Origin: Thraustochytrium sp. TN22
Lineage: Eukaryota > Sar > Bigyra > Thraustochytrida > Thraustochytriidae
Assembly (NCBI GenBank): GCA_013306675.1
Contig: JABLUY010000207.1
Location: 1 to 64,000 of the forward strand
Length of the DNA stretch: 64,000 bases
Reading direction: 5' to 3'
This document shows positions 28,901 through 59,806 of the stretch, in pieces. Made by a program: the position numbers and the translations under genes. The number at the start of each line of letters is the position of its first letter. The stretch's first letter is position 1. Below the pieces are notes generated by a model, which made no database searches, was not told where the DNA came from, and saw only the letters and a program-made list of their open reading frames with translations.

Positions 28901-31900
28901 CTTCGAGGCGAGCGGCAAGTCCACCAGCAGCGGCATGGGCTCATTCTTCCAGGCCGGGAGCGGCAGCCACCTGGAACTCGTGGAGCACCCCGAGGAGGAT
29001 GAAGAGGAAGCCAAGGAGGGCCGGGACCTGGACGACAGCGGGGCGAGGCAGAACGCAAAGGGCATTCGCGACCTACGCGCCGAAGACATCTGGGGGGTCA
29101 ACTCGTACACGGTTCTCGCGCAGCAGCGTATGCGCACAGAGCTCAACAAGGCCAAGGAGGCGAACTTCCGGACAGTCCGCGTCATGGAGATGCGCCTTGA
29201 CGGCCTGGAGATGCGCTTCGACACGGGCGATCTGGTCTTCTTCATGGAGGTGGGTAACAGGCAGATGGAGATGCTGGCGAAGCTTTACCCTGCCCAGGGT
29301 GCGGCCCAGGACGACGCACCCGTCGCAAACGGTGGTGATCCGCACGAGGCCGGCCCTGGCGCCCTGCAGCGCGGCGACCGCGCCGACTCCGTCTTGAGCC
29401 ACCAGCGCGGCCATGCCGAGTCCATGCTTTCGCAGCAGACCTCCGTCAGCAGCGTGACAGGCGCGTCGGAGCTGCCTGGTGCGAACTCCGCCCACAGCCC
29501 GGTCCGGGTGCTCACGGAGAACGACATCCGGGTGCTCGAGAAGACGCACTCAAACGTCGAGGAGTTGCCTACGGAAGACGGCCCGTCTTTCGGGCAGCAG
29601 CAGAAGGATCAGCAGCAGAAGCGGAGCTCCTGGCGCGATGCAATCGGCACCGGGACCGGGACCTCTCTGGTGCCGGCATGGCTCATCTCAAGCATGGTGC
29701 CGATGCTGGTCATGTGCGTGGACACGGAGGCATTCCGACGACGATTGCCTGGCGACTTCCCGGGCCATTGGAATACGGAGCGCGACGCGGAGGTGATGGG
29801 CATGCTGGCGGACAAGGCAGCCAAAGCATCCGACGTGGAAAACGTTTTCAACCAGGTAAACGTGTACGTGAACCAGCTCATGTTGGGCATCGGCAACAAC
29901 GTGGAGGGCTACCCAACGCCATTTGTTCGCCTCAGCCTCGCGCAGTTCAACCTGATTGGTTGCTCGCGAACGGCCTTTGGCGACGACCTGCAGGTCCGAG
30001 GCTACGTATCCACGACCAGTACAACGTACAACCCGATCGTGCGGACGTGGGAACCGCTCATTGAGCCTTACTCTCTGCTGCTGCAAGCGGAGCGGAGCGA
30101 GAAGACCACGGGTCTGCTGCTGCAGGCCATCGCGCCTCGGCGCTTCAACCTCAACATCACGGACGGGTTTCTGCGCTCGCTTGTGAGCTTCATGAGCTCG
30201 CTCGACCCGACCTACACGCCACTCGACGACGAGCGCCTCCACGGCATGTACACGCCGAACTGGGTCGTCAACGAGACCGGTCATCGCCTCTCGTTGTGGC
30301 CCGTCTCCGACCCGGAGGCGCAGTACCATTCTGTGGACCCGCAGCTCCTCTCCTACCGCGGCAAGGACCAGTTGTACGACGTCATGACAGGGCACTCGTG
30401 CCGCTTGCACCTGCACGACACGCGGCGCATCCAGAACAAGATGGCCGAGCTGCTGCACCACCTGCGGGAAAACAAGCGCCGGCTTCTCGTGAAGACGGTC
30501 AAGTACATGCAGCGCGCCGCGCGCCAGACGCGTGAGGAGCGCGAGAACTCCCAAACCTCCTTGGATGACCGCGGCGCGGAGGACAAGGACGGGGAGGACG
30601 CCGGCGATCTGGAGCGGGCCAAGGGTCTGATCCAATCCAACGAAAACGTGCTCCGGGGCGACTCCGAGACCGAGGAGGACCGCACCAAACGCCACAAGGA
30701 GGAGGCGGCGGAGCTGCGCAAGGACCTCACTGAGCTCTTCCACTTCATGGACGAGGACGACAGCGGCGAAATCTCATGCGTCGAGCTGCAGAACGCGCTC
30801 TCGCACTACGGCGAACCCATCAGCATCGAGGAAGTGCTCTACTCGATTGGTGAGATGGACGACGACGGCGTGGAAAACGTCGACGCATCCGAGACGGGCA
30901 TTGACCTGCGCGAATTTCTCGCCTTCTTCGAGCCGGCCCTCCATCCATCCAAGGAGCGCCGGCCGCCGGGTCTTGAGGTGCACGCGCTGGGCTTTCACAT
31001 TGGTGGCCTGGGCCGCGCCTTTGAGCGCCCGGACGAGGACGGCGAGGAGACCGCGCCGAAGAGCATGAGGCGCGGCAGTAGCTCGGCAGCGGGTGCTGGC
31101 AGCGACGCGCAAGCGAGCGCGCAGACCGTCGAGCTCTCGCTCCCGGAGCAATTCGGCCTCGCCCCTGCTGGAAACGCCGGCACCTTCATGCTCAAGACGA
31201 TGAACGTGATTCACCCACGGCCGGACGGCGAGCACCGCCACGAAACGAACGAGGGCCGGCGCGGCTCTAGCGCCACTGGTCAAGGCGGGAGGAGCACGGC
31301 GGCCGAGGACACAGATGTGGACGACGCGAATCCGGCGGACTCGCCTGAGGCGGACGAGGAGGCCCGCGAGAAGCGGCGCGAGAGCAAGCGACTGTCAGCG
31401 CAGCAGATCAAGAAGCAGGATGACCGCCGCTACGCGTTCCAGGACCACCATGTGAATGCGCTGAGCGTGGTTGCCAACGTGCAAAAGATTGGGCGGTCGT
31501 CGGCCGGTGACCTCCTCTTTCTGGAGACGCCAATCCGCATCGAGAATCGGACCGTTGTACCTCTCAAGATCGAGTTCGTCATTAGCGGCGCGGACGGCGG
31601 TGAGTTCACCCGCGAGGCAGTCTTCACGCTGTCAGCGGGCGATGAGCAGTCTGTGCCGCTCAAGTTCCTTTACGCGCAGCAGCTCGGGCTCGATCGCATC
31701 CTGGGCCCCGGGAATGTCCGTGTGGGCTTCGCCGTCACGCCCGTCATGGACCGCGCCACGGTGAAGCGGCTGTGGGCCAACAAACACGGCGAGGAGCAGG
31801 ACAGCCATGAACAGCAACAGCAGAGCCGGCGGCAGTCCATGGAAAGCCGCAGCGGCCGCGCGCAGTCCATCAACAGTGCGCACTCGGTGCGCAGCACGGA

Positions 31901-34900
31901 CTCGGCCGTGGACCTCTGGGTGCCCTCGAGCATTCTTGTGACGCTGGATGGCGGCCAGGGGCTCACGGTCGTGCAGCCCTTCCGGTCAACCGACGATTTG
32001 CTCGATAAGGATGGCCGTCTGCTCAACGACCTGCTCGTCAGCGAGCACCAGCACAGCGGGAGTGGCCACGCGGGCAACAAGGACAGCCCGGAGCTCGACA
32101 GTGACATTGTGGGCGCAAGTCGTGTCGAGTTTGAGCCCGTCAATCAGGACGACACTGAGGGCGCGGCCGAGGACGACGACGTCTTCGAGGAGGCGTCCAC
32201 GGCGCAGAGAAAAATCAGCCAACGCGGCGCGGCGATTGAGGATCTGGATGCGAGCACCGGCGCGGCGGACGGCGCGGTCGATCCAGAGCATCCGCCCCCG
32301 CCGCACGCCTTCGAGTGCGTCATGCTGACGCAGCGCAACGCGCTGCAGACCTTCGAGATGAAGGAGGTGCTCACGGTGCAGGTCCTGCAGGCATCGAACC
32401 TGCTCGCCGCCGACTTTAACAATTCCTCGGACCCTTTTGTGGTGGTCTGGTCGCTGGACGGCCAGGAGCGTCCCGTGGAAAAGTACAAGACGCCCAAGAT
32501 CAAGAAGACCCTCAATCCGGTGTGGCCGAACAAGTCGACCTTCCTCTTTGGTGACGGCAAGGAGCCCCTGTCGCGGCAGAAGACGCTGCGCTTCAAGGTC
32601 ATGGACTGGGACGCGGTCTCGAGCAACGACCCGCTTGGCTACGTGACGCTGGGCATGGAGAAGATCATCAGTTGGTTCTCCGGCGGCCCAGCGGTCGGTT
32701 CGCCCCGCGGCGTGATCAAGAAGACATTTGGGCTTGATGGCGGCCCGGGCCTGGCAAAGAAGGATGCCAAGGGCTCGCTCACGGTCGAGTTTAGCTACCG
32801 CCGGTACACGGCGGCCACGGGCGCTCCCACGTGCAACCTGCAGCACGTGCTTAGCTTCTACCCGCCGCTCGTGCTGGAGAACCTGTTGCCTGTGCCGCTT
32901 GAGATTGCCCTCGTGGTGCGCGAGACATCCGGCGAGGCTCGCGTGCGGCGACAGCACAAGATCAAGATTCAAAAGGGCGGCCGCGTGCCGTTCCACGAGC
33001 TCGATGGCGCTCTCTTTGACTACCTGGACCCGATTTGGTGCCAGCACCACTCTCAGCGCGCGTCGAAGCTGTCACGCGCCAAGCCCAAGCAGCTCGCGGC
33101 CCGCGAGGGTCTTGTCGGTGAGGTGCGCGTCCGCGTTCTACTCAACGACCGTCCCACCGCGTGGAGCGAGCCCGTGGAGCAGACGCCGCTGGGCGTGCAG
33201 ATCAAGGACGTCGGCTCGGACCGCGCGCTCTGCAGCGTGAGCGCCGAGGTGGAGCGCAATGCCGTCCAGGATGGCGGCGGCCGCCGCCTCATCGTGTCGG
33301 CGCCGCTCTGGGCTGTCAACAAGACCGACATGGTACTCGACTGGACCGTGGCGCTGACCGACAAGAAGCGGCATCTAGATACTGGGCCGAGCCGCGCGAA
33401 GCTCGTTGACCACGTGCCCACGGCTGTGGTGCCCATGTATGCGCGGCCCCTGCAGCGCCAGATCTTTGCCGAGGCGCGGATGCACACGGGAGAAAATGCG
33501 CCGCGCTTCACGGCATCGTCCTCAGACTACATCATGGACGACGAGAGCCAGGAGCTGCAGTCCGGTCTTCCCGTCTACAAGCCGCTCTTCTCGCGGCAGC
33601 TTCCGGGCCCGGAAAACTTTCCGAGTTTTCAGCTGGCCTTTGTCGCGTCCCGCATCGAGGGCATGCCCTCGACCACTGGCGCAGTGTGCCTGGCCGGCGC
33701 CATGACCGAGGAACACCAGCACCAGCACCCGCAGAGCGCCCGCTCGTACAATGCAGGCATCATGCTGAGCTCGCGCGACACCTGGCCTTTTGGCAGTGGG
33801 TATTTGTCCGTGACAGTGCCCTCGTCGAGCAGCGCTGAGCCGCACGGCACGGTGGTGCTTGAGCTGTGCGAGATCCATCAAAGTGACATGGCGCCGGCGG
33901 CATCCTTCGTGCAGAGCGGCGGGGGCGCGGCTGCGGAAGCTGGCGGCAACGAGTCCGGGCAAGCAGCCAAGGGCGTCAAGAACTCCGAGTCGAATGGGAA
34001 CCGGTCCAGCCAGCGCCTGACGCACGGCTTGGACAGCCTGTATGTGAGCCCGCGAAAGCAGCGCGTGCTGGGCCGTGCTGAGCTGAGCGTGCCGCAGCTG
34101 CTGGAGACGCTGCTCGTGCAGGGCCGCACAACCTGCACGCAGGAGTTTCCCCTCGATCAAGGCGGAGGCACCGCCAAGGTGCACATGGAGATCTGCTTGG
34201 CTGGCATGCCGATGGACGAGCGGCTCGTGTCGGTATACAGCGCGCTGTCCGGCGTGGTGAGCGACCTACCTTTTCGCCGCGACATCGGCGTGTGGCTGTC
34301 CCCGCTTTGGGGCCCGTTCTCGCTCACGTCGCTCCTCGTGGTGGGCCCCAAGTACCGCGTGGCGAACATCACCGAAGAACCGCTGCTGGTGAAGCAGGAG
34401 GGCTGCCCGGACTGCACGGCAATCTTGCTCAGCCCGAGGGACCCGGCAATCCGCTACGACCCGAACGATCTTTCAGACGTGACGGCCTTCTCCTTTCACC
34501 TTCAGCTGTCGCCGGGGACGCGGTACCAGCTGCGCGAGGACCCATCCAAGAAGTCGTACACGGCGACGGACGCGATCCAGGTGCGCCTGGCGCACCCGGA
34601 CGGCGTGTGGTCGGCGCCGATGCGGCTGGGGGAGCTGGATGACTTTGCGATGCAGCTGCGCGTGGGCAAGGACCAACGCCGCGCCGCGCGCGTGTGGGTG
34701 GACGCCAACGAGGTGCTGCCTTCGGAGATGATCATCTTCCGTTCCTTGGAGCTGGATCAGGTCAACTACGCGGTGCGCAACACGCTCAAGGATCGCGCGT
34801 TCGATGTGGTGCAGGTTCCAGCGCACGAGGCTGGTTGCCTGGCGCCGTTGAAGCGGATCTTCAAGCCGCCCAAGTCGGCGGCTCGGCGCATGCGCGAGGC

Positions 34901-44801: not shown

Positions 44802-46597
44802 ATGACCCGACGCCTCGCATACGTGGCGGCGCTCGCCGTGGCCACGCTGGTCGCAATGGCCCGCGCAGAATGCGACATGTGGGTGGACGGGACCTTCATC
44901 GGAACCCGGCCGCTCAGTACCGCGCCAGAGGACGTGGAGCAGATCGTCTGCACCGGGGAGACCAAGCTCCCGAGCAAGTTCTACAAGCTCAGGCAGCTCA
45001 AGCATGTGTGAGTCCGCTAACGCGCGGGCTTTGAGCAGGGGCTGGCGAACTGACAGGCATGCATCGTGCGAAGCGACATCTCTGAGTCCTCGGTCAAGAC
45101 GCTCACCGGCAGCCTCAAGAAGCTCAAGCAGCTGACACATCTGTACGTGGCGGTGCACCCCCGCGGCATTGCATGCATGCAGCGACACTCACGACGCATT
45201 GCACGACACAACGAACACGCAGGCGCGTGGCGAACTGTGGTCTCAGCTACGTGTCCACTCGCATCGGCGCGCTCTCCAGGCTCACCACTCTGTACGTCTT
45301 GGCAAGCCTCGTGATTCACGGATGACGAGAGCCGGCCTGAGGACTGACTCGACCTCGCCGCTCCACAGGGACCTATCTGACAACGAGCTCCGCTCTCTCC
45401 CAGCGAACATTCGAAACCTTCAAGCGCTGACGCTTCTGGACGCATCGAGCAACAAGCTCGGCAGCTTCCCGACGGCCATTTCCCACCTCGCGGGCCTCAA
45501 GACTCTACTGCTTGGCGCGAACTCGCTCTCTCAGATGCCCGCGGTAGCCGGGATCAGCGGCCTCGAGGCGCTGGACCTGGGCTCCAATGCACTCTCCTCG
45601 CTCCCGGCCTCCGTGGGAGGTCTCACCAACCTCGCATCGCTTGACGTCGCGGACAACGGCCTCGAGACTCTCCCGGACGTCTTTGGCGCCTTTTCTGCGC
45701 TCCAGACGCTGTACGTGATGAGTTGAGCGCGCGCGTACCCCACCGCCTGTCTCGACTCGACCTGAGCCGCTGACTAACTCGCAAACCGTCGCCGCCGCCA
45801 GAGACATTTCGGGCAACCTCCTCTCGGAGCTGCCTTCTTCTCTCATCCAGGAAAGCATCGTCACGCTGTCCATGCGCAACAACGCCGTAGGTATCAAGTC
45901 GCCGCACCGCGGTAGCCTGGTGCGTATAGAAAGACTGACGGACAGCGGCGCGCCTCACTCCCAGTTCACCGAGGTCCCAAACCCGGTCGCTTCCATGCCG
46001 AAACTCGCGTACCTGACGCTGGGGTCCAACGAGATCGACACGGAGAGCCTCTCGTCGCTTGCGCAGCTCACCGCGCTGCGCACTCTAGCGCTCGACAACT
46101 GCAACCTGGGCTATCTGCCGGATGACTTTGGCCTCTGGTTCCCGAGCCTGCGCATGCTGGACGTCCGCAACAACTCGCTGCAGACGCTGCCGGACTCCAT
46201 CTCCGAGTTGCAGCTTGATTGGCTGAACGCTCTGCCTAACGACTTTTGCGGCAAGCTGCCGGAGCTGAACATCGCCATGGACTCGGACGTGGTCTCTGGC
46301 CAGAGCTTTGCCGAGTGCGATGAGCCGGCTGAGCCGACCGACCCCCGCACGCCGATTGAGGAGGGCTGCCTGGTTGCCGACACGCGCCATCGTGGCTCCT
46401 ATGTGCCGGGTGTGCGCGGCGGCATTCAGGCCGAGTCAGCAGAGGAGTGTTACGAGATGTGCAGCGAGTACTGGAAGTGCGCCTTCTTCTCCTACCGCGG
46501 CGACCGCAAGCGCTGCTTCATGTACGAGACCGTCGCACGATCCCACTCGACCAAGGCGTCCAAGGCCTGGGTTTCGGGCACATTCCCTTGCAACTAG
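44802..46597 (+). CDS. LRR gene A: secreted leucine-rich-repeat protein with PAN/Apple-like C-terminus
   Basis: Six exons by my reading: 44802-45007, 45074-45142, 45223-45291, 45369-45710, 45802-45886 and 45965-46597, giving 467 residues. The first four introns are phase 2 and split the codon for a conserved repeat Leu; the last is phase 0. Donors are GTGAGT, GTACGT (three times) and GTAGGT. Exon 1 has a signal peptide (RLAYVAALAVATLVAMARA) and a cap with two Cys. Exons 2 and 3 are one 23-residue LRR each; exon 4 holds five (for example LDLSDNELRSLPANIRNLQA). The last ~76 residues, from CLVADTRHRGSYV, have six cysteines including CYEMC, like a PAN/Apple adhesion domain. There is no membrane segment, so it is probably secreted. 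It is the first of three related LRR genes in the window. Confidence 0.82.
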
Positions 46598-46702
46598 CGA
46601 TCATCTGCCATTAATTAAAGAAGCGTGGGTGGGCTCGCGAGCTACATCAAGTCAAAATCGATTACAGTGTCTTCTTGCTTCTTGTGCAAGCCGCGCCTCC
46701 TC

Positions 46703-47523
46703 TCAAAAGAATAAACGAGACGCGTGTTGAGAGCCGCGCCAGACCCGATAGTTGCTCATGACACGCGCCGCGGCTGCCTCGTCCAGCTGTGGAACAGCGC
46801 GCCCCTTCTCCACATCATCCTCGTGAACGACCTCGGGCGCGCACGTAGCCGCAGAAGAAAGGTTCGCGGCTGTCTCGCTCGTCGTGTTCTCTTCACACAA
46901 ACGCACGGTCGTGAGTTTGGGCATGTGAGTAGCCGGCGTGGGGGGGGGGCTCGTGGCAGGTTTGTTCACCGGAGGATGCGTGTGCGACGAGGAGTCGCCG
47001 CGACTTTGTGGGGCCGCTGCGGGTGCAGGCTGTCTGCCCTGCTGGCGGCGGGGAAAACATGTGATAGTGCGGGCCATTTTGTGCAGGTGGAGCGTGTTGG
47101 AGTTCCCGAACTTGGTGCCGCAGTCATCACATTGAAGCCTCAGTCGTTCCAACGGTGAGATCTTCCTCTTAGCCTTGGCAAATCTGATCAGAGGAGCCAA
47201 ATGGAGAAACCTACGTTCCTGTCCAGAAATGCAAGCGAAGGAGTCTTGGTGAACCTGAACGAAACGCAAGGAGGAGTACGTTTTGTTGCAACGCAGACAC
47301 TGGAAGAACTTGGGATCGTAGTGCCGTACCATGATTATCGCGCGCATGATTGGCGATTCCTGCTGCAGCAAATGGTATTCGTCCACAGGAAACAGTGCCG
47401 ACGAACTCTCCTCCTCAGGAGAACGTTGCTTGAGGTGCTGGAGACACTCTTGTCGGAGCTTCTGCAACTCCTCCAGGTACTCTGACTGCTTCCGTTGCGC
47501 CTCCGCGAGCTCACGCTGTTGTA

Positions 47524-47554
<31 letters not shown>

Positions 47555-47639
47555 GTTTTGTTGGTTTTGTTGTTGGTTTTGTTGTTGTTGCTGCGGCTGC
47601 TGCTGCTGTGGCTGCTGCTGCTGCTTCTGATGATGAAAG

Positions 47640-47696
<57 letters not shown>

Positions 47697-48544
47697 CGAG
47701 ATCGTTGATGCTGATGCTGGTGCTGTTGCTGGTGCACCTGCAGCAGTTGTTGGTGGCGTCGTTGGTTCTGGTGCTGCAGCTGTTGCTGCTGGGGCCGTTG
47801 ATCTTGCTGCAGCGGACCTGGCGAGACATGATGCTGATTTGGGACTTTTGCTCGATGAGCCAGTTGACCTAGAGCTTTGCGGCTTTGTGAGGTTGCTGAG
47901 CCATTCCATACGCATATGAAGCTGTCCTGGTGGTGAAACAATTCCAGCGTGTCGCCGAAGACTCGATTGCAGCGGTTGCACCTTTTGGTGTGCGGATCGT
48001 AATCCCGCGCCATGATGATTTCCTGGGAGATCGGGAGATCTCGACGATCAAGTTGCCGTTGGTTGACAGGTCCTCCAGGTGCGCCTGGCCGCTCGATCGA
48101 AAGGCACGGACTTGGCTGCTGCACTTGCTCTTGCTGCTGCCGCAGAGCCAGACCCGGCCCTTCTTTGTGGTGTGCACTCTGCACTTGGTCGTGATGATGC
48201 ACCAGGCCCTGACGGGGGTCCTGGTGCTGGCGATGATGCTGCGCATGCTGCTGGTCCACGTGAACATGGTGCTCGTGTGAATGATGCGCGTCCTGCTGTC
48301 GCCGAGCCGCAGACGTCAACCGCAGTTTGTGTCCATCCTGGCCCTTGAGAAATGCGCCTAGCTCCATGTCGTGGCGCCGCTGCAGGTAAGACATCTCCGC
48401 TACATGCTGGTCGCGCAACGAAGGAGCCGACACTCCCCTCGAAAGTGCCAGCTGTCGCTCTCGCAGGGCGTACGTCTGCAGCGCCTGCCTGTACAGGAGC
48501 GAGGGATGCTCCTCGCCGCCCCAGGAGCCCGCGTCCTCGTCCAT
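46703..48544 (-). CDS. Poly-Q protein with three C2HC zinc-finger-like motifs
   Basis: A 613-residue protein of no family I recognise. It is dominated by Gln/His: a (CAA)n-coded run of about 19 Gln at 47641-47697 and further Q-rich segments. Three zinc-finger-like motifs stand out: CNRCNRVFGDTLELFHHQ with a Cys five residues after the second His, CLRCNKTYSSLRFVQVHQDS likewise, and CDDCGTKFGNSNTLHLHK ending in Cys. The first two follow C-x2-C-x12-H-x5-C exactly; the third has x7 before the last Cys. The first two are each preceded by a similar IIMARDYDP / IIMVRHYDP lead-in, so they form a repeated module. The product is likely nuclear and nucleic-acid or protein binding. The ATG at 48544 (GTCCATGG, read on the other strand as GACGAGGACG after the start) is the first in frame. 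Confidence 0.75.
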
Positions 48545-49625
48545 GGCGTCCGCTCCACGCTCGCTGACTGTGTGGTCCTGGGCCCCGCGGTGCGTCACGC
48601 CGCGCCGCGCCGCGCCGCGCCGCGCCGTGCCGCGCCGCGCCGCGCCGCGCCGTGCCGCGCCGCGCTGCGCCGCCGCTGCGCCGCGCGGCGGGCGAGTGTC
48701 CCTTGGGCAAAAAGTATTTGAAAGCCTCGCCGTGACCGCCGGCGGGCTTGGCGACGGGCCGCGGCGCGGCAGCCCGCTGCGCTGGCACGCGGCCGTCGCC
48801 TCCTGCGACGATTGGCCGCACGCGGCGACCTGCCGCGCGGCCGCGCTCTGGCGTCGCGAGGCGAGGAGAGTGACGCATCCGGCCGGCCCTCTTGCAGGTG
48901 ACGGCGCCGCCGCGGCGCGGTGGTTAGGTTTCGACCTAATTCAAACTAAAGAGGTGTAAATCCTTGAGCTTGACAGGCAGCCTGATGAGATGTCCGAGTC
49001 ATGTTTAACTTTGGAACCAAGCTGGCCGCGCACGCGATACGAGACGCGAGTTTGGTGCAAATAAGAGCTTGCATTGCCGAGTGCGGTTCTTGGACAAGAC
49101 GAGTCTTCAAGTGTTTTCCTTCGTGTCTGAGATCAGTCTCCAACTTGACGCACGTCGCACAGGGCTTTCACTGTCAGGACGTGACAGCTGCAGCAAACCT
49201 CGCCGAGTTCTGCTTGCCTGCCGATACCGTGCGCGAGGCAGCGCCGCGGAGTCGCGCCTTCGCCGACGTCCGAGTCGGGTCGGGTCGCTCGGGTCGGGTC
49301 GGACCTGGACCGACAGCCGCGCGTGCACTGCAGTGCAGTCCCTGCTTAGCACCGCAGCAGTACTTCTAATCATTCACATCTGCCTGCAGCCTCTCAGCGA
49401 TCGGCTGCGTCGTCAAAGCTCGCGGGAGAAGGCCGGGCTTGTGCCACGTGTTGTCGATCCGCGGCGGGCGCGCATCCCGATGCAGGCCGTGCGGCGCTGG
49501 CCTTGGCGCTGGCACTGCCGGTGGCGGACGGCCATAGGGCAGACTGACGGTGGTGTGCTGCGGCGGATACCGGCCCGGTCGCTACGCCCGGGCCTGGGCA
49601 ATCAAACTCGCTTCGAGGTCGGCGC

Positions 49626-49684
<59 letters not shown>

Positions 49685-49716
49685 GCGGCGGCGGCGACAG
49701 AGGCGGCGGCGGCGCA
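48545..49716. other. Divergent promoter region with CCGCG and AGC repeats
   Basis: The zinc-finger gene and the serine hydrolase start at opposite ends. (CGCCG)n repeats lie at 48598-48680. An (AGC)n run of about 19 units lies at 49626-49682. The AGC run is in frame with the hydrolase and would encode poly-Ser if translation began at the upstream ATG 49480. Confidence 0.55.
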
Positions 49717-51018
49717 ATGTTCGACTTCACGGGCAAGGACGTGGGCCTGCCGTGGGCGCATGCGCCCGAGTCGGTGGGGCTGTCGAAGACGGCACTGGAG
49801 CGCCTGGACGGCTTTCTGGAGCACACGGTGGACAAGTCGGTCGGGCATAGCTTTCCGATGGCCAGCGCGCTGGTGTGCCGCAAGGGCAAGGTGGTGTACT
49901 ACAAGGGCCACGGCACGGCGCTGACGGAGAAGGGCACGCCGCTGGAGCACGACACCATCTTCCGCATCTACTCCATGACCAAGCCCATCACTTCCCTGGC
50001 GCTGCTCATGCTGCTGGAGGAGGGCAAGCTTACGCTGGACCAGCCCGCGCACCTGTATCTGGGCGACAAGTGGAAGAAGGAGAACATGCGCGTGCTGCTG
50101 GCCAAGGACGCCGAGCCCGTGCCGTGCACCAACAGCATCACGATCCGCCATCTGCTCACGCACATGGCCGGTCTCTCGTACGGCTTTGAGAACCTGATTG
50201 CAGAGAATCCGGTCGACCCGCTGTACCTGGAATCGAGCCGCCGGGCCATCAAGGAGAACGAGACGCTCGAGCAGCTTGTGGACCGCATTGCTGGCCTGCC
50301 CCTCTGTTGCCAGCCTGGCGAGGAGTGGAACTACAGTTACGCCACGGACGTCGTGGGCCGTCTCGTGGAGGTCATCTCGGGCCAGTCGCTCGGCGACTTC
50401 CTCGAGGAGCGTATCTTCCGCCCTCTCGACATGTTCGACACCAGCTTCCACCTCGACGAATCCAAGTACGGCCGTCTCGCCAGCCTGCACATGGAGCTCC
50501 CGGATGGCTCCAGGCAGGACGTCACCTCGATGCAGGTCAAGAACGGCGAGTACACCTCTGCCAAGCGCATGCACTCGGGCGGCGGCGGCCTCGTGTCTAC
50601 GATGCGGGACTACGCGCGTTTCTGCCAGTTTTGCATGAACAAGGGCGAGCTGGACGGCCATCGCCTGCTCTCGCGCAAGACCTTCGATATGGCCACGCGC
50701 AACCACCTGCCCGGCGGCAAGGACATCGTCGACCTTGCCACGCCCAGCTGCGTTGACCACGGCATCCCGGGCCTCGGCTTTGGCCTCGGCTTCGCCGTCG
50801 TCACCGACCCGGCCGCCTACTCCTGGCAGTGCAGCGAGGGTCAGTACTTTTGGGCCGGCGCCGCCAGTACCGTCTTCTTCTGCGACCCGGAGGAGGACAT
50901 GTTTGCCATCTTCTTCACCCAGGTCTTCGGACGCGACAACATTCGCATGCCGCTTCGCGTCCTCTTCAGCAACGTCGTCTACGGCGCCCTCATCGATGAG
51001 CCCAAGAGCCGCATCTGA
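49717..51018 (+). CDS. Class C beta-lactamase-like serine hydrolase
   Basis: A 433-residue protein of the beta-lactamase / penicillin-binding-protein-like family that includes LACTB and family VIII esterases. The catalytic SxxK is SMTK at 86-89 (IFRIYSMTKPITSLALL). The tyrosine of the second motif is in NYSYATDVVGR near 206, the esterase-like form of YxN. RHLLTHMAGLSYGF and HSGGGGLVSTMRDYARF are further conserved blocks, and GLGFGLGFAVVTDP precedes the C-terminal strand. The function is probably esterase or amidase rather than antibiotic resistance; the substrate is unknown. No signal peptide is seen from this start. An earlier in-frame ATG at 49480 would add 79 residues including an Arg-rich start and a Ser run of about 19; I prefer 49717 because the domain begins right after it. 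Confidence 0.9.
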   Translation: MFDFTGKDVGLPWAHAPESVGLSKTALERLDGFLEHTVDKSVGHSFPMASALVCRKGKVVYYKGHGTALTEKGTPLEHDTIFRIYSMTKPITSLALLMLLEEGKLTLDQPAHLYLGDKWKKENMRVLLAKDAEPVPCTNSITIRHLLTHMAGLSYGFENLIAENPVDPLYLESSRRAIKENETLEQLVDRIAGLPLCCQPGEEWNYSYATDVVGRLVEVISGQSLGDFLEERIFRPLDMFDTSFHLDESKYGRLASLHMELPDGSRQDVTSMQVKNGEYTSAKRMHSGGGGLVSTMRDYARFCQFCMNKGELDGHRLLSRKTFDMATRNHLPGGKDIVDLATPSCVDHGIPGLGFGLGFAVVTDPAAYSWQCSEGQYFWAGAASTVFFCDPEEDMFAIFFTQVFGRDNIRMPLRVLFSNVVYGALIDEPKSRI

Positions 51019-53013
51019 TCCGACCCTCGTGCTCCCATGGGCCCTTGCCAGGCCGTATAACCCTTCAAAGTCTATTTGCTCTTGTCGTTATCGTCGTCGT
51101 TGTCGTGGCGAGCAGCAGCCTCCGTCGGTGGGGAAACGGTGCCACTGCCACATGATGGGACAGGTACCCGTACCGATAACTTACTTACCTCACCACTTGG
51201 CAGGTAACGTTATGGTATGCGCCGGAGATGCGCACAGATGCGAAGAGAAGCGTAAAGTAAAAGCGTTCGTCGCCGGGAAGTGTCACGGTCGCTCCCCTCT
51301 GTCAGGCCGCGTTCTGTTCTTGGCTAGCTAGCGAAGTCCGAGCCGAAGCCTCGACTCGGAGGGTCCCCGCCGTCAGGCCCCTGGTCGCACGTCATCGATC
51401 AAATCAACAAGCTGAGCCTGCATCATGATGGCGGGCGGCGGCGCGGCGGATGATGCGAGGCAGCGCGAGGATTGCTCGCTCGGCGATTGCGCGACATGCG
51501 CAGCAGCACTGCGCAGCACTGCCAGCCCTGCCTTTACCAGCTTTGGAGCTCAAGTTCGGATGAGATCTGCACACGTGCGGCCCGGGCCACAGCGAGGACC
51601 CAAACCTTTCAAGTTCGATCCATCGAACGAGTGGCGAAGCAGCGCGCCGCGCGCGCGCGCCGCAGACCTCCAAACCACACGCGAGCGAGGGATGAGCGAG
51701 CGAGCTGCTCGAGCAGAGCACGGCGGATGAGGACTTGCCCGCCAAGGAGGACGTGAGCGCGAGGGAGTCTGGCCTGGAGACCACGAGGCCCAAGGCAGTG
51801 CGAAGAGAGGGAAGCAGGGAGAAGCAGAGAGGTACCAGGTGGTGCCCTGCCCAGTAAGCGTGCCTGGGCTGCGCGAGCAGCGCGAGCCACACAAGCTGCA
51901 CGTGGTGGAGCTGCACGTGGTGGAGCTGCACGTGGTAGATGGAGCTGCACGTGGATGGAGCTGCACGCGGTGGAGTGGACCTGCGCGCGTGGCGGAGCTG
52001 CACGTGGCGGAGGTACGCGCGTGGCGTAGCTGCGCGAGACGGCGCCTGCAAGGGTCAGCGCTGGTTAGCGAGCACGACGCCTCCGCGTTGGCCGCGTAGG
52101 CCGCGACGGGCGCAATCTCCGACGAACCATCACGATGCTGCATCAACACAGCAAGCCCAAGACGACACAGCACGCCGTGGGCGAGTAATCCTTTCACCTG
52201 AGCGCGGGCCATTGAAGTCACGCAAATGTCCATCGTCACGGATACTCGAGATCTTGCCAGAAGCGGGCGAGCATGGCGTTGCACGCATCTCCTAGCATCA
52301 CATCGCGCTCACTGCACCCGTCTACATCGCGGGCGTGCCCTTTTTCGCCGATCCTCGTACTCGTCCTCATCATCCACCAGCCCACGCTTCTCTCTCTGGA
52401 TGTGAGCTACCATGCATGCATGCACGCGGCCAGTCACAAGGTGGTACATCGGCATGCACATCAGCGCCAGCCTGCCACGCTCATCATCATGCACGCAACA
52501 TCGCCACTTGCCGCGAGGCTATTCCGGGCAACGTGGTCAACCTCGGCAAATGGGACGACCGTTGGGCCCGCGCTTGTCGTGTGGTATACGTTGGCCACAT
52601 GCGCCGCGCCGCGCCGCGCTTTCGCTCGGCGCCGCGCGAAGGGCGACGGCGCCGCGCCGCGACCACTGGCCGGGCACACGGGCCGCTTGGGCCAGTTCGT
52701 TGGCGCCGATGAGCCCCTTTGCGCTGCGCGGGCGCGTGCTCGCGGAAGGCGCCCAAACCAAGTCGCGACGCACGGCCGCGCGGGGTGCGCGGCGACGAGC
52801 GGGCGCAGCGCAGCGCAGCGGCCGGCCAGTCGCGTGCTCGGCCGAGTGATCTCCAAGGCCAGCGAGCTGGCGGGCCACGGGAGCCTGGGCTGGACCTCCA
52901 ACTCATCGCGGAGCTGTGCGCGGACCCTCCTTTCCCCCCTCCGTCGCTGCCGCACGGTCAAGAAGCGCCGGTCACGGTCAAGAAGCGCTCGCGGGCAGGC
53001 CAGCTAGAGCACG
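51019..53013. other. Gene-poor region, 2 kb, with a GTGGAGCTGCAC repeat
   Basis: No gene is supported. Tandem copies of GTGGAGCTGCAC with 3-6-bp variants run at about 51895-51985 and continue less perfectly to 52030. A GGCTAGCTAGCG motif sits at about 51323. The right end, upstream of LRR gene B, should hold its promoter. Confidence 0.45.
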
Positions 53014-56000
53014 ATGTTGGCCTCGAGCACATGGCAAGCTATGGCGCTCGTGGCTGTCTCGGTCTGGGCCATGCTCACGGGCAACGCCATGGCGGAGTGC
53101 GTGTGCCAGGAGGTGGGCACTCCCACATCGAGGATCTCGTGCATCTCCTGCAACACGAGCTTCCCGGACCTGTCCTTGTACAACCCTGCGTTCATTGAGA
53201 GGCTGTAAGTACCGCCCGCATGCCTTCTCGAACGCAGCCTGCTGACGCAACGAGCGGCCGCGGACAGGATCGTTGACACTGGGCTGATCACCTCGATCCC
53301 AGATCAAATCGGCGACTTCACGGCGCTGACGTACCTGTAAGTCCTGCGCGTCATGGCAGACGTTTTCCGTTTTCGGTCTCTAACTCTGACGCTTGAACAG
53401 GAGCCTGCGGGATAATCAGCTCACTGCCCTGCCATCAACGATTGGCGGCCTGACCAATCTGCTCTCTCTGTATGTCAATGTAGCGCGCGCGTGCTCTGCT
53501 TGCGAGAATTCAGGCCTAGGACGCTAACCCACGCTCTCGCTGCAGACACGCTCCAAACAACCTTCTGAGCTCGCTGCCGGAGGAGATTGGCGACCTGTCG
53601 AGCTTGCTCTACCTGTAGGTTGCTTGTGAAGTCTTGGACGCCAAGCCTTCAAGTACAGACTGCCCTGACGACGCGCGCCCACAGGAACCTTGCGGCGAAT
53701 CAGATCACGGAGCTTCCAGCCGCGATCAGTCGCCTCACGACAGTCACGTCCATGTACGTTCTGCGTGGGTGGCCGGCCAGCCCAGCCCGTTCCATCCGGG
53801 GTGGGGCTCTGGAGGCTGACAGACAAGTCGCGCACCACAGGCACCTGGAAACCAATCTGTTGACATCCATCTCTGAGGTCCATGGCTGGACGGCGTTGAC
53901 GTACCTGTGGGTAGAGTATGCTTGGCTAGGCAAGGAGTTGGACGGTCTCGGCAAGCCCGACGAGATGACTGACGTGGTCTCCGGAGCTGCTCAGCGATGT
54001 GGAGACGAACCTTCTCACGGAGCTCCCCGCCTCTGTCGGCAACCTCTCGAAGCTTTTTGTCATGTGCGTGAAACCAGACCCTTTCCCCACTTTTGCTCCG
54101 TAGCTGTCACGTGGAGCGCCGGCGAACTGACGCAGCAGACGTACTCGATCGGCCCCAGCGATCTGGATGAGAATCAAATCACCGCGCTCCCAGAGTCCAT
54201 TGGCCTGCTGAGCGACTCGCTCGTCCAGATCGACTATCAGTTCAACCAAGCCACCGGCCTGCCGAATTCCATCAACAGCCTGAGCAAGCTGGAATTCTTG
54301 CGCGTCTCGAACAATAAGCTCACCGCACTCCCGCCCATTCCTAACCTCTCACAGCTCTACTATCTGTACGTTCGTTCGTCCCGCGCCCGCCCTCCCTCGC
54401 CCGTTTCGAAACGTGTTTGAGCTTCGCTGACTCGGGTCTTGCCGACATCAGCGACGTTGGCACCAACCAAATCTCCGAGCTGCCTGCGACCTTGTCCACG
54501 CTCACAGATCTGCAATATCTGTACGTTTTGCATGTTCGACATGCTTGCATCCTGTTCTCGTCCGCACCGACGCGCGCACTGACGCACATGTGCTCGAGGC
54601 TGTCACTAGTCTGGCGGATTCGAATCTGATGTCCACGTTAGGGGACTGGATCGGTGACCTGAGCATGCTGAAATACGTAGACGTAGAGACCAACCGGCTC
54701 ACACAAGTGCCCGACGTCTTCAGCAAGCTGACGCGCCTGACGCAACTACGGCTCGCAAAGAACTCCTTGAGCTCCTTACCGTCCCTGGCAGGGCTCTCGG
54801 CAATGCTTAGCCTACACCTCAGCTCGAACGTGCTGACCTCCCTCCCCGAGTCGCTCGGCGCCAACGTGCCCTCTCTGGGATATCTCAACGTACGAGCCAA
54901 CAACCTCACCTCCATCCCCGCGTCGATCGAAATGCTCTCGAGCCTCACCTGGCTCTACGCCATGGACAACAAGCTCAGCGCCCTGCCCGAGCCCATCGGC
55001 AACCTGCCGAATCTCATAAGGCTATACGCGGGAAGCAACAGCCTCACGAGCATTCCAAACTCCATTGGCATGCTTTCAACGCTCACCACCTTGAGCTTGT
55101 ACTGGAATGAGCTCACGGAGATTCCAGAATCCGTCGGCAACCTCACGCTTCTGGAGCGCCTCTCGATTTCCGACAACCCAAACCTACACAGACTGCCCAT
55201 GTCGCTCACGCGGCTTACCGCACTCTCTTACCTGTGGACGGAAAACCTCGAGCTGCTGGGTCGGCAGCCGGACTTGGACCTGCTTCCCTATGTCGTCGAA
55301 GTTCCAGACCGGAATTGGTCATCCTATGAGCCCCTGCCGACCGCAGGGCCGACAGCCGAGCCGACGCAGCTGCAAGAGCCGACGGGCGACTCGGAGACGC
55401 CATCGGACGGCCAGAAGGTCTGCCCGAACGGCGCGTATGTGAATCCGGACGGCGAGTGCTTCTTCGTGTGGGACCGCCGCGGCGAATTTCGCCCGCTCAT
55501 TCTAGTCGTGTGCGCGCTGGGTCTCGCGAGCGTCTTTGCGGCCTTGGCCAGCCTCGGCTGGCTCGGGCTGGACATCTCGCCGGACGTCGTGGCTGCTGTA
55601 GGCGACTTGGGGACCGATCTCTTCTACGTGACGCAGGAACCCTTCTTCAACAAGACGCTGTTTGCGCTGAGCTGCACCTCGCTCGTGCTCACGGTAGGCC
55701 CGTACACGCTCTGGCTTTTGAACAATCCGCTGCGGCTCCGCCTCATGGACGCCGTGCGCGATGCGCCGCTGCGCCGCCTCTTCTTCGTGTCGGTCGGGGC
55801 CACCCTTTGGTGGGCGGCGGGCTTCCTGCTCTACACCATCAAACTGCTCTCCTTCGACTCGGTGAAAAGCACCTTTCTGCTCGACCCGGAGAGTCTTGGC
55901 TTTGTGTGCTGCCTCGGCGCTAGGCGCTGGCTCTACCGATACCGCCCAGAGGACCCATCGGCGCCCGGCGCGAAGGCGGCCCTTCCGGGACCACCCTTCG

Positions 56001-56545
56001 ACCCGGCGGCCTTCAACCGGATGCGCCTGCTCGAGTTTGCGCTGGAGAGCGTGCCCCAGTTTTCCCTGCAGGTGGCCAACGGTGTCTATCTGGACGACTG
56101 GAGTACCGCATCCATCCTCTCTCTCTGCTTCTCTGGCTATCTCATCATCCGCGTGCTCTGGGCGCTGGGCCGTCACGCGTACAACGGCCGCGGCCTGGAT
56201 CAGATGCAGGTCGGTCTCGGTATCTTCCGGTCGAGGCACCGTGCCGCGAGCGCCGCGAGCGCCGACATCAAGCCATCCGCCAGCAGCGGCGTTCGCGATG
56301 GGCGCTCCGCCGACGGCGCTGATGGCGCTGGCCACGAGGAGCCCACGCCCGAGGTGACCAGTTCGACCTCGGGGGGCGCTCCGGGCACGGCAACCGGGCG
56401 TACCACACCGTCGGGCAGCGTCTCTCTCGCCGCAGACGCCGCTACGAGCCATCGCGGCTCGTATGACGAAGACGCCACTGGCGACGAGCCTGAGGCAAGC
56501 AACGAGACTCGCACCCCGAAGGACGGCACGCTCACGATCGTGTAG
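53014..56545 (+). CDS. LRR gene B: signal peptide, LRRs and XK/XKR-like membrane domain
   Basis: Ten exons by my reading: 53014-53204, 53268-53336, 53401-53469, 53546-53614, 53685-53753, 53841-53906, 53995-54063, 54159-54365, 54452-54520 and 54610-56545, for 937 residues. All nine introns are phase 2. Exons 2-7 and 9 carry exactly one LRR (66 or 69 nt); exon 8 carries three (207 nt). Exon 1 has a signal peptide and a Cys cap (ECVCQEVGTPTSRISCISCN). The last exon adds more LRRs, a Pro/Thr linker, a Cys pair (CPNGAYVNPDGECFFVWDR) and a multi-pass domain at about 588-830. In it, DLGTDLFYVTQEPFF and ALESVPQFSLQVANGVYL recall the GDxxTD and ESxPQLxLQ signatures of XK/XKR proteins. The tail is Ser/Thr/Asp-rich. 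Inferred topology: LRRs outside, XKR-like domain in the plasma membrane. Confidence 0.83.
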
Positions 56546-56821
56546 GCTTGCTTGCTCTAACTGTAAGTAGAGGGAGACCTGGCCCCCTCTCCAAGAGCTA
56601 GCTTAGGTTTAGAGCGAGTGGTGGTGCGTGTGCCCACCTCTCACGTCACCTTTGTAAGCGGAGTGATTCACATGTCCATCTTGTGCTCGCACACGTGCTA
56701 TGCACGTGCAGCGAGCGCCCCACCGCCGCCGCGGCGGCTCCCCTCTTGACGCCGCCCGGGCTCCCCCATCGTGGGACCGGGCGCGTGCGGGCGGCGCGGC
56801 CGCGCAAAGACCGATTGAAAG

Positions 56822-56877
<56 letters not shown>

Positions 56878-56974
56878 CGGACTGCGGGCAGACCGCGGGC
56901 ACCTGGCGGCAGCGGCAGCGGCGCCCAGGTCGCCCTGCGTGCCAACCAAGAGCTTGTGCAAGTAGCACCGGCGC
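56546..56974. repeat. Spacer between LRR genes B and C with (GCG)n tract
   Basis: A GGC/GCG microsatellite of about 18 units runs at 56821-56876 in the 429-bp spacer, close upstream of LRR gene C. GAGCTAGCTTAGG lies at about 56597. Nothing coding is supported. Confidence 0.7.
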
Positions 56975-59806
56975 ATGTGCAGCTCGGTGGGGTACGCGAT
57001 GCGCCTCGGGGCGGCGCCCGGGCGCGCGGGGAAGAGGACGCTGGCGCTGAGCGTGCTGCAGTGCATGCTCGTGCTAAGCAGTGCATGTTCGTGCGCCGAG
57101 CAAGGCTCGCCTGTCAGTAGCCTCGCATGCACCGGCTGCAACAGCAGCTTCCCGGACCTGACGCCCTACTCGCCAGAGAGCCTGAGGGACCTGTACGTGC
57201 TCCATACGAGGAAGCGCCCTGTGCAGGCAAGAGAAGACTGACGCGGGCCTGACGGGCGAACAGTATCGTTCAAGGGGGGTCCATCACCGCGGTCCCGGAA
57301 AGCGTCGGCTCCTTCACCCTGCTCAGGCAGATGTAGGTCTGGTCGCGCGGCATGCGGGTTCGCGGAAGCAGCGCGCCTAACACCCCGCCTTTACCCAACA
57401 CGCACAGCAACTTGATGTCCAGCACGAGGCTGTCCTCGCTACCAGACAGCATCACCAACCTGCAGAGGCTAACCTACCTGTGCGTTTTCCACGCCAACCT
57501 TGCTGGCGAGCTCGCCCGGCACGCGCTGACGTTGCTCACGCAGGGATCTCCGCGAGACTGTCTTTACTGAGCTCCCAGACTGGATCGATAGGCTCTCCGC
57601 CTTGTTGGCGTTGTGCGTTTGCGCCTGCTTTACATTGCCACAGAGCGTCTACGCACCAGGACTGACATGGCACAACCAACGCAGAGACGTGAGGGTCAGT
57701 AGACTCACTGCATTGCCCGAAACCCTGGGCGATGCCACTTCTCTCGTTTTTTTGTACGTCACGGGGCTGCGGCTCGCGAAGAGAAGCACGTTGGGTCTGA
57801 CGCCAGGCGACATCCCGCAGAGGCCTTGGTGACAATCAGCTCAGCATCCTGCAGGACAGATTGACCCAGCTCACTGGATTGAGATATCTGTACGTTGACC
57901 CCTTGCAGCCTTTTCAGAAGCCTGCTACTCCAGTACCTGGCTCGTAGCTAGCTAGCTCCAGCTACTACTACTTTGAGAGTCAGGAGTAGCCGGCAGGATG
58001 TGAACGTGGCCTGACGACCCGAGTTGGCTGGTGTTCAGAAGCGTCCAGGCGAACCAGCTCAGCGATCTTCCGGAAGGAATTGGTGCGCTGACGCAGCTCA
58101 CCCAGCTGTACGTTTGACGCGGTCCGCGCGCTGCGCTTAGAGAACGAACGTTGCTCACTTGCTCTGCGTGCGGGCACAGGAGGTTGAGCACGAACCTGTT
58201 CTCGTCTCTTCCAATGAGCATCGGCAATCTGCACCAGCTCAACTCTCTCTTGATGAACGACCTCACCAACCTCCACTCGCTGCCCTCCAGCATGACCCAG
58301 CTCACCAGTCTGTGGTCCTTCGCGACCCTCAACGTCGATCTCACAGGTCCTCAGCCGAACATGGACCTGCTCAACATTGCTTTCGAAGAGCCTGACCGAG
58401 ACTATTCCGTCTTCCCCCCTTATCCTACGGCGGCACCAACGACGGAACCCACGCTGGCGCCTACGCATCGGCCAACGCGAGCCCCAGTCCCGCCGCCGCC
58501 GCCGCCCGGCTCGCACTGCCCGCCCGGCTCGTACGTGAGCACGCACTACGAGTGCTTCTTTGTGTGGGACCGCAACGGGAGCGCGAGGTTTGCTGTCCTC
58601 GCGCTGTGCGTGGCGTCACTCGCGATCGTCGCCGCGTCGATGAGCAGCCTTGGCTGGCTCGGCTTGGGCCTCGCGCCAGACGTCCTGCTGTCCCTCGGCG
58701 ATCTCGCCACAGATCTTTTTTACGTGACGCAGGAGCCTTTCTTCAACCGAACGCTCTTTGTGCTGAGTATCAGCTCGCTGGCGCTGGCGGTCGGCCCGTA
58801 CACGATCTGGCTCATGAACAACCCGATGCGCGTTCGAGTCTTTGACATTGTGCGGGACGCTTCGCTGGAGCGCGTCCTCGCCGTAGCGTTCGGCTCCGCG
58901 CTATGGTGGATTGTAGGGCTGCTGCTGTACGCCATCAAGGTGCTCCCTGTGGAATCAGTACGGCTTGCCTTTCTGCTCGACCCCGAGAGCTGGGTGGTTC
59001 GCAGCCACGCACGCATCAAGGCCTGGGCGCGCAGATTGCGGCCCTCGTCACGGGCCGCCGCGGCGCCGCCTTCGGCGCCGCCGCCCCAGGCCAGCCTACG
59101 AAGCGGACGCCAGGCGCCGCCCTTTGACGCGGCGGCCTTCAATCGCATGCGCCTGGTCGAATCCTCACTGGAGAGCATGCCGCAGTTCGCCCTGCAGGTT
59201 GCAAATGGCTTATACCTGGGCACGTGGAGCCCGACCGCCATCGCCTCGCTCTGCTTCTCTGGTTACATCCTCCTCCGCGCTCTTGGGGCTCTGGTGATGC
59301 GGGCATTGAGCGGCCGGCCTTTGGAGAAGATGCAGATCGGCTTCGGCGACCTCTTCTCCTCGAGGATGCATCCGAGATCCAACAAGGACCGCGTTTTGCC
59401 GTCCACAGACTCCGGACGGTCAGGGCCTGATGGTTCTGTTCAAGTGCGCGACGACGTGAAGCACGGAGCGGGCGCGATTGACGATGCTGTCGCCGATGAG
59501 CGACCCGAGCTCGAGTCCGGCGGCTGGCTCGGTGATGTAAAGTGGCCGCCGGCCAAGAGCAGCGCCTCCTCGTACAGAAAGGAGGAGGAGGAGGAGGAGG
59601 AGGAGGAGGAGGAAGGGGAGGAGGAGGCGGATGAGGTGGAGTCCGACACGGAGTCTGCAATGAGCGAAGCAACGATTTGTACGGCATCTGAGCTCTCCGA
59701 GTCCGACCAAGAGCATGACGAACCTCAGCCAGGCAACGAAGACCATGGCGAACCTGGTCCAGGCGACGTGCGCCTTGTTGAAGCGCAACCCCTCTCGCTG
59801 GTGTAA
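56975..59806 (+). CDS. LRR gene C: paralogue of B, LRRs and XK/XKR-like membrane domain
   Basis: Eight exons by my reading: 56975-57192, 57264-57332, 57408-57479, 57544-57612, 57685-57753, 57821-57889, 58039-58107 and 58180-59806, for 753 residues. All seven introns are phase 2; exons 2-7 are single LRRs of 69, 72, 69, 69, 69 and 69 nt. The cap CSCAEQGSPVSSLACTGCNS matches that of gene B. A second ATG at 56999 would give a cleaner signal peptide (RTLALSVLQCMLVLSSACSC). After the LRRs come a Pro-rich linker, CPPGSYVSTHYECFFVWDR, and the multi-pass domain (about 349-603) with DLATDLFYVTQEPFF and SLESMPQFALQVANGLYL. It is very similar to B but has fewer repeats. The cytoplasmic tail contains a Glu run (about 679-690) from a GAG repeat at 59581-59613. 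Confidence 0.83.

Follow-up and report, generated by a model that had tools for sequence, protein, structure and literature searches.

One LRR per exon: a predicted phase-2 intron design in a putative surface-type LRR gene family of a probable thraustochytrid

The design in which each leucine-rich repeat (LRR) occupies its own exon between phase-2 introns is already known from brown algae, ciliates and vertebrates, and the genes analyzed here resemble these cases. In brown-algal ROCO genes, one LRR is encoded per 72-bp exon with phase-2 introns (excerpts of PMC11378527, citing Zambounis 2012), and the same excerpts report positive selection and splice variants. According to published excerpts on Tetrahymena, an LRR family is built from exons of exactly 90 bp, more than 96% of them with phase-2 introns, with more than 1,000 LRR genes in most species and recent clonal exon expansions. 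In vertebrate NLR genes, LRR exons preserve the reading frame and their borders sit at a constant position of the beta-sheet (excerpts of PMC6642158), and gonadotropin receptors feature LRR exons with phase-2 introns (excerpts of PMC11378527).

The window, i.e. the whole 64,000-nucleotide stretch of DNA under analysis, carries three LRR genes for which final models without internal stops are predicted: A (44802-46597, 467 aa, 6 exons), B (53041-56545, 928 aa, 10 exons) and C (56999-59806, 745 aa, 8 exons). These models reproduce the 21 introns of a first-pass annotation, 20 in phase 2 and one in phase 0, as well as its claim that most phase-2 introns cut a conserved Leu codon: Leu is split in 16 of the 20, Ile in two, Val and Met in one each. 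The conserved split Leu generally lies in the beta-strand of an LRR. The 15 one-LRR exons of 66, 69 or 72 nt are found again (two in A, seven in B, six in C), as are the exons of 207 nt with three LRRs (B, 54159-54365) and 342 nt with five (A, 45369-45710), and the frame is kept at every join. The phase-0 intron of gene A agrees in existence and phase, but its position was revised: it is better placed at 45887-45964 (78 nt, donor GTAGGT) because this restores an LRR, whereas a splice predictor chose 45920-45964 (45 nt). At the level of predicted introns, the one-LRR-per-exon design is real, and it looks old. The features, with the final model, the predictor and an LRR-exon scanner as sources, are as follows.

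Gene A
44802..45007 (+), exon 1: 206 nt, signal-peptide-like start (by eye), N-terminal region without FPD motif, LRR array begins; predictor, final model
45008..45073 (+), intron 1: phase 2, GTGAGT..AAG, splits GTC (Val); final model, predictor
45074..45142 (+), exon 2: 69 nt, one LRR; scanner, final model, predictor
45143..45222 (+), intron 2: phase 2, GTACGT..CAG, splits CTG; final model, predictor
45223..45291 (+), exon 3: 69 nt, one LRR; scanner, final model, predictor
45292..45368 (+), intron 3: phase 2, splits CTG; final model, predictor
45369..45710 (+), exon 4: 342 nt, five LRRs; scanner, final model
45711..45801 (+), intron 4: phase 2, splits CTA; final model, predictor
45802..45886 (+), exon 5, revised model; final model, LRR continuity
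45887..45964 (+), intron 5: phase 0, GTAGGT donor; final model, predictor prefers 45920-45964
45965..46597 (+), exon 6: last LRRs, PAN-like C-terminus, stop; Pfam PAN_1 at about 46424-46558, E 3.7e-7, above cut-off

Gene B
53041..53204 (+), exon 1: signal-peptide-like start (by eye), Cys/FPD cap, other in-frame ATGs at 53014, 53071 and 53089; final model
53205..53267 (+), intron 1: phase 2, splits CTG; final model, predictor
53268..53336 (+), exon 2: 69 nt, one LRR; scanner, final model
53337..53400 (+), intron 2: phase 2, splits CTG; final model, predictor
53401..53469 (+), exon 3: 69 nt, one LRR; scanner, final model
53470..53545 (+), intron 3: phase 2, splits CTA; final model, predictor
53546..53614 (+), exon 4: 69 nt, one LRR; scanner, final model
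53615..53684 (+), intron 4: phase 2, splits CTG; final model, predictor
53685..53753 (+), exon 5: 69 nt, one LRR; scanner, final model
53754..53840 (+), intron 5: phase 2, splits ATG (Met); final model, predictor
53841..53906 (+), exon 6: 66 nt, one LRR; scanner, final model
53907..53994 (+), intron 6: phase 2, splits CTC; final model, predictor
53995..54063 (+), exon 7: 69 nt, one LRR; scanner, final model
54064..54158 (+), intron 7: phase 2, splits ATC (Ile); final model, LRR continuity, predictor's end at 54116
54159..54365 (+), exon 8: 207 nt, three LRRs; scanner, final model
54366..54451 (+), intron 8: phase 2, splits CTC; final model, predictor
54452..54520 (+), exon 9: 69 nt, one LRR; scanner, final model
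54521..54609 (+), intron 9: phase 2, splits CTT; final model, predictor
54610..56545 (+), exon 10: remaining LRRs, Pro/Thr stalk, XK-related-like module (55457-56242), C-terminal tail; Pfam scans, final model

Gene C
56999..57192 (+), exon 1: signal-peptide-like start (by eye), Cys/FPD cap, other in-frame ATGs at 56975 and 57065; final model, false predictor intron 57061-57144 inside
57193..57263 (+), intron 1: phase 2, splits CTT; final model, predictor
57264..57332 (+), exon 2: 69 nt, one LRR; scanner, final model
57333..57407 (+), intron 2: phase 2, splits ATC (Ile); final model, predictor
57408..57479 (+), exon 3: 72 nt, one LRR; final model, predictor, missed by scanner
57480..57543 (+), intron 3: phase 2, splits CTG; final model, predictor
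57544..57612 (+), exon 4: 69 nt, one LRR; scanner, final model
57613..57684 (+), intron 4: phase 2, splits TTA; final model, predictor fuses introns 4 and 5, skipping exon 5
57685..57753 (+), exon 5: 69 nt, one LRR; scanner, final model, missed by predictor
57754..57820 (+), intron 5: phase 2, splits TTA; final model
57821..57889 (+), exon 6: 69 nt, one LRR; scanner, final model
57890..58038 (+), intron 6: 149 nt, phase 2, splits CTA; final model, predictor
58039..58107 (+), exon 7: 69 nt, one LRR; scanner, final model
58108..58179 (+), intron 7: phase 2, splits CTG; final model, predictor
58180..59806 (+), exon 8: last LRRs, GPQPNMD linker, Pro/Thr stalk, XK-related-like module (58553-59368), acidic tail; final model, XK-related search, false predictor intron 58958-59113 inside

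Between A and B lie an ORF without Pfam match (46703-48544, reverse strand) and an ORF of the beta-lactamase family (49480-51018, forward strand).

The splice predictor was trained on six non-LRR genes and is blind to LRRs and phase. At a penalty of -6 it recovered 17 of the 21 introns of A, B and C exactly, and 83 of 90 introns predicted in 12 further loci were in phase 2, compared with 3 of 11 introns wrongly inserted into seven held-out long ORFs taken as intronless. The phase-2 pattern is more than chance. The training set of a first codon table had included the final exon of both B and C as well as one stretch that was out of frame, and this table gave 90 of 94 phase-2 introns; the 83 of 90 were obtained after retraining without LRR genes. 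For genes D to H, phase-2 introns were seen solely with the first table and as matches to an LRR-end-plus-donor pattern, which occurs 54 times genome-wide as opposed to six times for the reversed pattern. The LRR-exon scanner yielded 88 hits over loci L032-L045 and 17 in L050 and L052, none on the opposite strands of those loci, and a single background hit when 108.6 kb of remaining window and antisense sequence was scanned. One of its 17 hits in the window (58180-58605) lies inside the last exon of C and is false by the final model, and scanner exons were absent in five of the seven loci of one further set (L048, L049, L051, L053, L054). When eight exons of the near-copies L044 and L045 were compared, mismatches numbered 32 at third, 21 at first and 10 at second codon positions (406 each), and all nine gap columns fell inside predicted introns, with the 392-nt last interval set aside; the predictor part and the control of this comparison used the first codon table including its out-of-frame stretch. 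Individual intron calls are unsafe, because the retrained predictor put 17 false introns into 13 long ORFs, found none in L039 and a single phase-0 intron in its near-copy L040, and at a softer penalty of -5 predicted four further introns, one of them in B and the others in C. Read-through of the introns as coding sequence was rejected: the lengths of 67 introns are evenly spread modulo 3 (19/24/24) and 61 cannot be retained in frame, leaving six that can.

The search for further copies proposed in the first-pass annotation returned 27 genes with at least one such predicted intron in the part of the genome covered, with several kinds of C-terminus: an XK-related-like multi-pass module (B, C), a PAN-like domain (A), a single hydrophobic stretch, a GPI-like end or a long ectodomain. 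Signal peptides were judged by eye and transmembrane stretches by hydropathy. A Cys/FPD cap and a Pro/Thr stalk are present in many loci, as read with the first codon table. The curated one-LRR exons (n = 96) measure 69 nt in 80 cases, 72 nt in 11 and 66 nt in five, with a median intron of 74 nt between them; these statistics cover the set apart from multi-LRR exons, the second gene of L033 (three one-LRR exons), L040, L045, L043 and M. A von Willebrand-type ectodomain in gene I was rejected, as no Pfam match appeared at E 0.1. The domains that mark LRR receptor kinases and NLRs (kinase, NACHT or NB-ARC) are absent from the Pfam matches to the C-terminal portions of the three window genes and to five other C-terminal stretches, some of them cut by the locus end. 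Like the brown-algal ROCO genes as excerpted, A, B and C come from a probable stramenopile and combine one LRR per exon with (predicted) phase-2 introns, but the family mostly uses 69 nt instead of 72 bp and encodes surface-type proteins with other C-termini in place of ROC-COR GTPases; in the C-terminal portions of these three genes, Pfam hits were limited to LRR and PAN profiles plus weak ones that are XK-related or due to chance, with no ROC-COR domain among them. With Tetrahymena, as described in the excerpts, it shares a large protist LRR family, uniform exons and phase-2 introns, whereas none of the curated one-LRR exons is exactly 90 bp long, and more than 1,000 genes in most species with recent clonal expansion stand against 27 genes in part of the genome and no recent copies among the exons compared. 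The vertebrate genes have frame-preserving LRR exons as well, in phase 2 for gonadotropin receptors, but their LRR classes and architectures differ in the excerpted accounts and NLRP exons hold two LRRs.

The surroundings may be poor in introns, as the first-pass annotation has it for nearly all other genes. Thirteen long ORFs of the window run uninterrupted from ATG to stop, and scoring 150 out of 316 candidates gave a list of 33 LRR_6 matches, 22 of which fall within open frames at least 500 aa long. For a published thraustochytrid, 4,623 introns in 14,145 genes are given in the excerpted source; a PUFA synthase encoded in the present genome suggests a thraustochytrid. It is conceivable, though very improbable, that introns were repeatedly and independently inserted at the same codon of intronless LRRs and did not spread by exon-unit duplication. 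Intron-poor members exist, and where L032 has one exon of 138 nt, L037 has two of 69 nt, with an intron at the corresponding LRR border. However, a protosplice site is flanked by AG, while the 5' exon flank is mostly CT here (56 of 83), and the intron position does not vary between genes that differ in their C-termini.

B and C have the multi-pass C-terminal module in common, with relatives in genes J and K. J (28.5 bits) and K (28.2 bits) exceed the XK-related (PF09815) cut-off of 24.8, while in a whole-genome search they stayed below the cut-off (23.5 and 22.1 bits). Matches of B (E 0.062 and 0.026), C (0.048), I and D fall below it, H has no PF09815 match, and a PDB sequence search with an XK-like profile gave just two matches (E 0.93 and 2). 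K combines its above-cut-off score with four scanner-detected one-LRR exons, and in K, B and C the module is fused to an LRR ectodomain, a difference from XK-related proteins. It is conceivable, if unlikely, that B, C and K are ligand-sensing, scramblase-like membrane proteins of the XK-related kind, the length of whose exon-per-LRR ectodomain would be tuned by whole-exon gain and loss. Surface recognition would then be linked to the movement of lipids or to bridging of the VPS13 type, and the window also contains a VPS13-like gene. Six intron-poor genes among the 11 XK-like members fall on one side of a branch (100/100), with a long-branch warning for H and C, and with the first codon table each gene of this subclade shows one or two LRR introns. 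Judging from this subclade, many LRR introns are dispensable, and the introns could persist for expression, i.e. intron-mediated enhancement, or by inertia, the modularity having no present role; excerpts of a Brassica LRR-RLK paper cite intron-enhanced ERECTA expression. We consider this possible yet doubtful, as many arrays are rich in introns despite the intron-poor lineage and one-exon changes between paralogs suggest that modularity has mattered.

The first-pass annotation had proposed that symmetric exons could diversify the ectodomain. Symmetry (phase 2 on both sides of the one-LRR exons), frame and recurrence stand, and so do one-exon differences between paralogs: L034 and L036 share eight introns and differ by one extra 23-aa LRR exon, L034 and L038 share nine and differ by one of 24 aa. 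Cells might skip or shuffle LRR exons by alternative splicing or unequal exchange to vary receptors of an immune type. Such a use has been suggested for the ROCO genes of brown algae, and Ectocarpus splice variants of these appear in the excerpted report. Gene M, an intron-poor member, carries an LRR-block duplication with the joint inside LRR coding sequence, probably a product of unequal exchange, and in two more diverged pairs, E/M and G/M, the concave face evolves faster, at a dN/dS of about 0.95 that does not exceed 1. Against this, two recent paralog pairs have dN below dS (dN/dS about 0.38 and 0.47) and no faster concave face, whereas the excerpts report positive selection for ROCO genes. 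Recent exon copies are lacking among the 80 exons of 69 nt, the best pair reaching 65% nucleotide identity (an earlier round used equal-length pairs among the first 83), and 67 introns gave no intron-intron match at E 1e-3, so that recent shuffling among the compared exons was rejected. Nearest neighbours of these exons are not enriched within genes, neither for DNA (4/80, shuffled mean 5.0) nor for protein (7/80, mean 4.9, p 0.25), and LRR order is kept in some paralogous arrays with 11, 8 and 9 shared introns, in a comparison of the loci other than L039, L040, L042-L045, the second gene of L033, D-H and M. The sample is one genome. LRR-exon diversification as an active process is not supported, and such a role is improbable.

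We favor, with a probability of about 0.8 and judging from sequence, that A, B and C are members of a family of LRR proteins, either secreted or anchored in the membrane, built on an old module with slow single-exon change and a surface role. In this module a single LRR of 23 residues fills an exon, with phase-2 cuts at the conserved Leu. In the predicted architecture, exon 1 supplies a signal-peptide-like start and in many members the Cys/FPD cap, short introns join the symmetric exons of the array, and the last exon adds the final LRRs, in many members the Pro/Thr stalk, and one of several C-termini. The sequence itself shows this architecture and its recurrence, collinearity of some paralogs with a difference of one LRR exon, and the XK-like subclade with few introns. 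Splicing is probably mostly constitutive, introns were presumably lost in the intron-poor subclade, and LRR number may shift slowly by gain or loss of single exons, which is frame-neutral because the introns are in phase 2. The proteins may serve in recognition or adhesion at the surface, and members with the XK-related-like module might pass a signal or move lipid at the membrane.

The family probably adds a thraustochytrid lineage to the scattered groups with phase-2 one-LRR exons, and it brings in a further protein type, namely LRR proteins of the cell surface, part of which carry an XK-related-like module. Introns have been retained here at the borders of LRRs in a lineage poor in introns; together with some collinear paralogs and an intron-poor sister clade, this offers a test bed for the question of whether such modular exons serve to create diversity or are leftovers from the past.

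The first-pass annotation had proposed 21 introns in the LRR genes A, B and C (20 of them phase 2), 15 exons of exactly one LRR and multi-LRR exons of 207 and 342 nt, all of which recur in our final models, built on predicted introns. A predictor of spliced ORFs, trained anew on six non-LRR genes and blind to LRRs and intron phase, placed 5, 9 and 8 introns in A, B and C at penalties of -6 and -7 (10 in B and 11 in C at the softer -5), and at -6 matched 17 of the 21 introns exactly. There it placed the phase-0 donor of A and one acceptor of B elsewhere, skipped exon 5 of C and predicted two further C introns (57061-57144 and 58958-59113), which are disfavoured by the resemblance of the C cap, the Cys/FPD stretch in exon 1, to that of B and by the C-terminal module alignment. 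Run as a control on 13 long ORFs, of which 6 had served for training and 7 had been held out, the predictor inserted 17 introns, only 4 of the 17 in phase 2.

The genome searched comprises 37.9 Mb in 453 contigs, the window being contig C119. A DNA pattern of LRR end and donor has 54 matches in it versus 6 for the reversed pattern, and on its strength 21 regions were fetched, which cover the pattern loci in part. A scanner for one-LRR exons found 88 in 14 of 14 loci (L032-L045) and 17 in L050 and L052, zero in L048, L049, L051, L053 and L054, and zero on the opposite strands of all 21 regions. In 12 fetched loci 83 of 90 introns placed by the retrained predictor are phase 2. Further copies, which the annotation had suggested seeking, are predicted: 27 genes (A-H, K, M, L032-L045 with two in L033, L050 and L052), a number drawn from fetched loci and no genome census, have at least one phase-2 LRR intron, and 18 of them two or more one-LRR exons. 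Final models, blind predictor, and pattern plus scanner together indicate a real, recurring family.

It had also been proposed that such symmetric exons could diversify the genes. One LRR exon indeed separates L034 from L036 and from L038, although LRR alignments are periodic, so that a gap placed at an exon boundary agrees with such a difference but does not fix it there; B/C and C/K, sharing 5 and 4 introns, differ more. The order of LRRs is kept in part: of 91 gene pairs, 16 align better than all 60 shuffles (about 1.5 expected). The best pair, L032/L037 (z 9.7), has 11 common introns, one differing boundary (138 versus 69+69 nt) and a different first exon, which may have been missed inside the 205-nt predicted intron of L037. 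Signs of recent copying, on the other hand, were not found: among 96 curated one-LRR exons from 17 genes, the best pair of the 80 of 69 nt is only 65% identical, nearest neighbours lie in the same gene no more often than in shuffles, and 67 introns compared with one another gave zero matches at E 1e-3. Gene M (C88:60001-76000, reverse strand; L027, L029) carries a 93% identical tandem LRR-block repeat of 669 nt at offset 752. The sequence around the repeat suggests that a phase-2 intron was copied along with the block, the join falling within an LRR.

Between the close tandem paralogs L044 and L045, third, first and second codon positions (406 each) carry 32, 21 and 10 mismatches and introns 33 in 485; the 9 gap columns are all intronic. 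Their dN/dS is 0.039/0.101, that of E/G 0.083/0.177. In more diverged pairs the concave face is faster (E/M 0.64/0.68, G/M 0.64/0.67; outside it 0.39/0.71 and 0.43/0.86), with values above 1 not reached there in E/M or G/M. Active diversification is not supported by these sequences.

The multi-pass, XK-related-like C-terminal module of B and C has 26 invariant columns in 11 aligned copies. Six of the 11 copies match the XK-related profile with E values up to 1, J and K exceeding its cut-off; when the whole genome was searched with this profile, J and K alone came up, both slightly short of the cut-off. In the 11-member tree one branch (support 100/100; long branches H and C flagged) separates the six intron-poor members from the rest, and intron loss is the simpler reading, since intron-rich arrays occur also with unlike C-termini. 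A ends in a PAN_1 match (Pfam); other loci, judged visually, finish with one hydrophobic stretch, a GPI-like end or a long ectodomain. To the eye, long Cys-containing stretches after the LRR arrays of L035, L038, L042 and L043 look alike (L043 least). A Pfam scan of five C-terminal stretches left four without a match; among the Cys-containing stretches only that of L038 has any, PT repeats and weak matches. About 12 members of the family, I among them, lie on contig C409 in three clusters (77-90, 181-208 and 281-300 kb). Gene I and two further ORFs of the window are:

C409:201832-204033, minus strand, gene I, XK-related-like module with a different, apparently non-LRR ectodomain by sequence (no match in a Pfam scan)
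window 22962-36464, plus strand, VPS13-like single ORF of 4500 aa with VPS13_VAB, C2 and EF-hand matches
window 46703-48544, minus strand, ORF lying between A and B, Gln-rich and containing long runs of CAA/CAG (no match in a Pfam scan at E 0.001)

The VPS13-like ORF shares its contig with XK-related-like genes; human VPS13A binds XK. Thraustochytrids are marked by a PfaA-type PUFA synthase and an oppositely oriented neighbour gene, and the genome has this synthase in a 3044-aa frame (2539.7 bits, above its cut-off), adjoined by a 2083-aa frame in opposite orientation, a pair that points to a probable thraustochytrid.

Precedents are the one-LRR-per-exon, phase-2 ROCO genes of brown algae (PMC11378527), human NLR exons (PMC6642158) and the uniform LRR exons of a Tetrahymena family; a paper on Brassica LRR-RLKs cites enhancement of ERECTA expression by introns. 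Intron counts are published for thraustochytrid SZU445, every stramenopile covered by one survey is reported to have LRR receptors, and a transcriptome paper describes LRR proteins as relatively few in the strain studied. The papers listed by our literature search for thraustochytrid or labyrinthulomycete LRR receptors included none on such genes. The exon design is known from other groups; the lineage is new.
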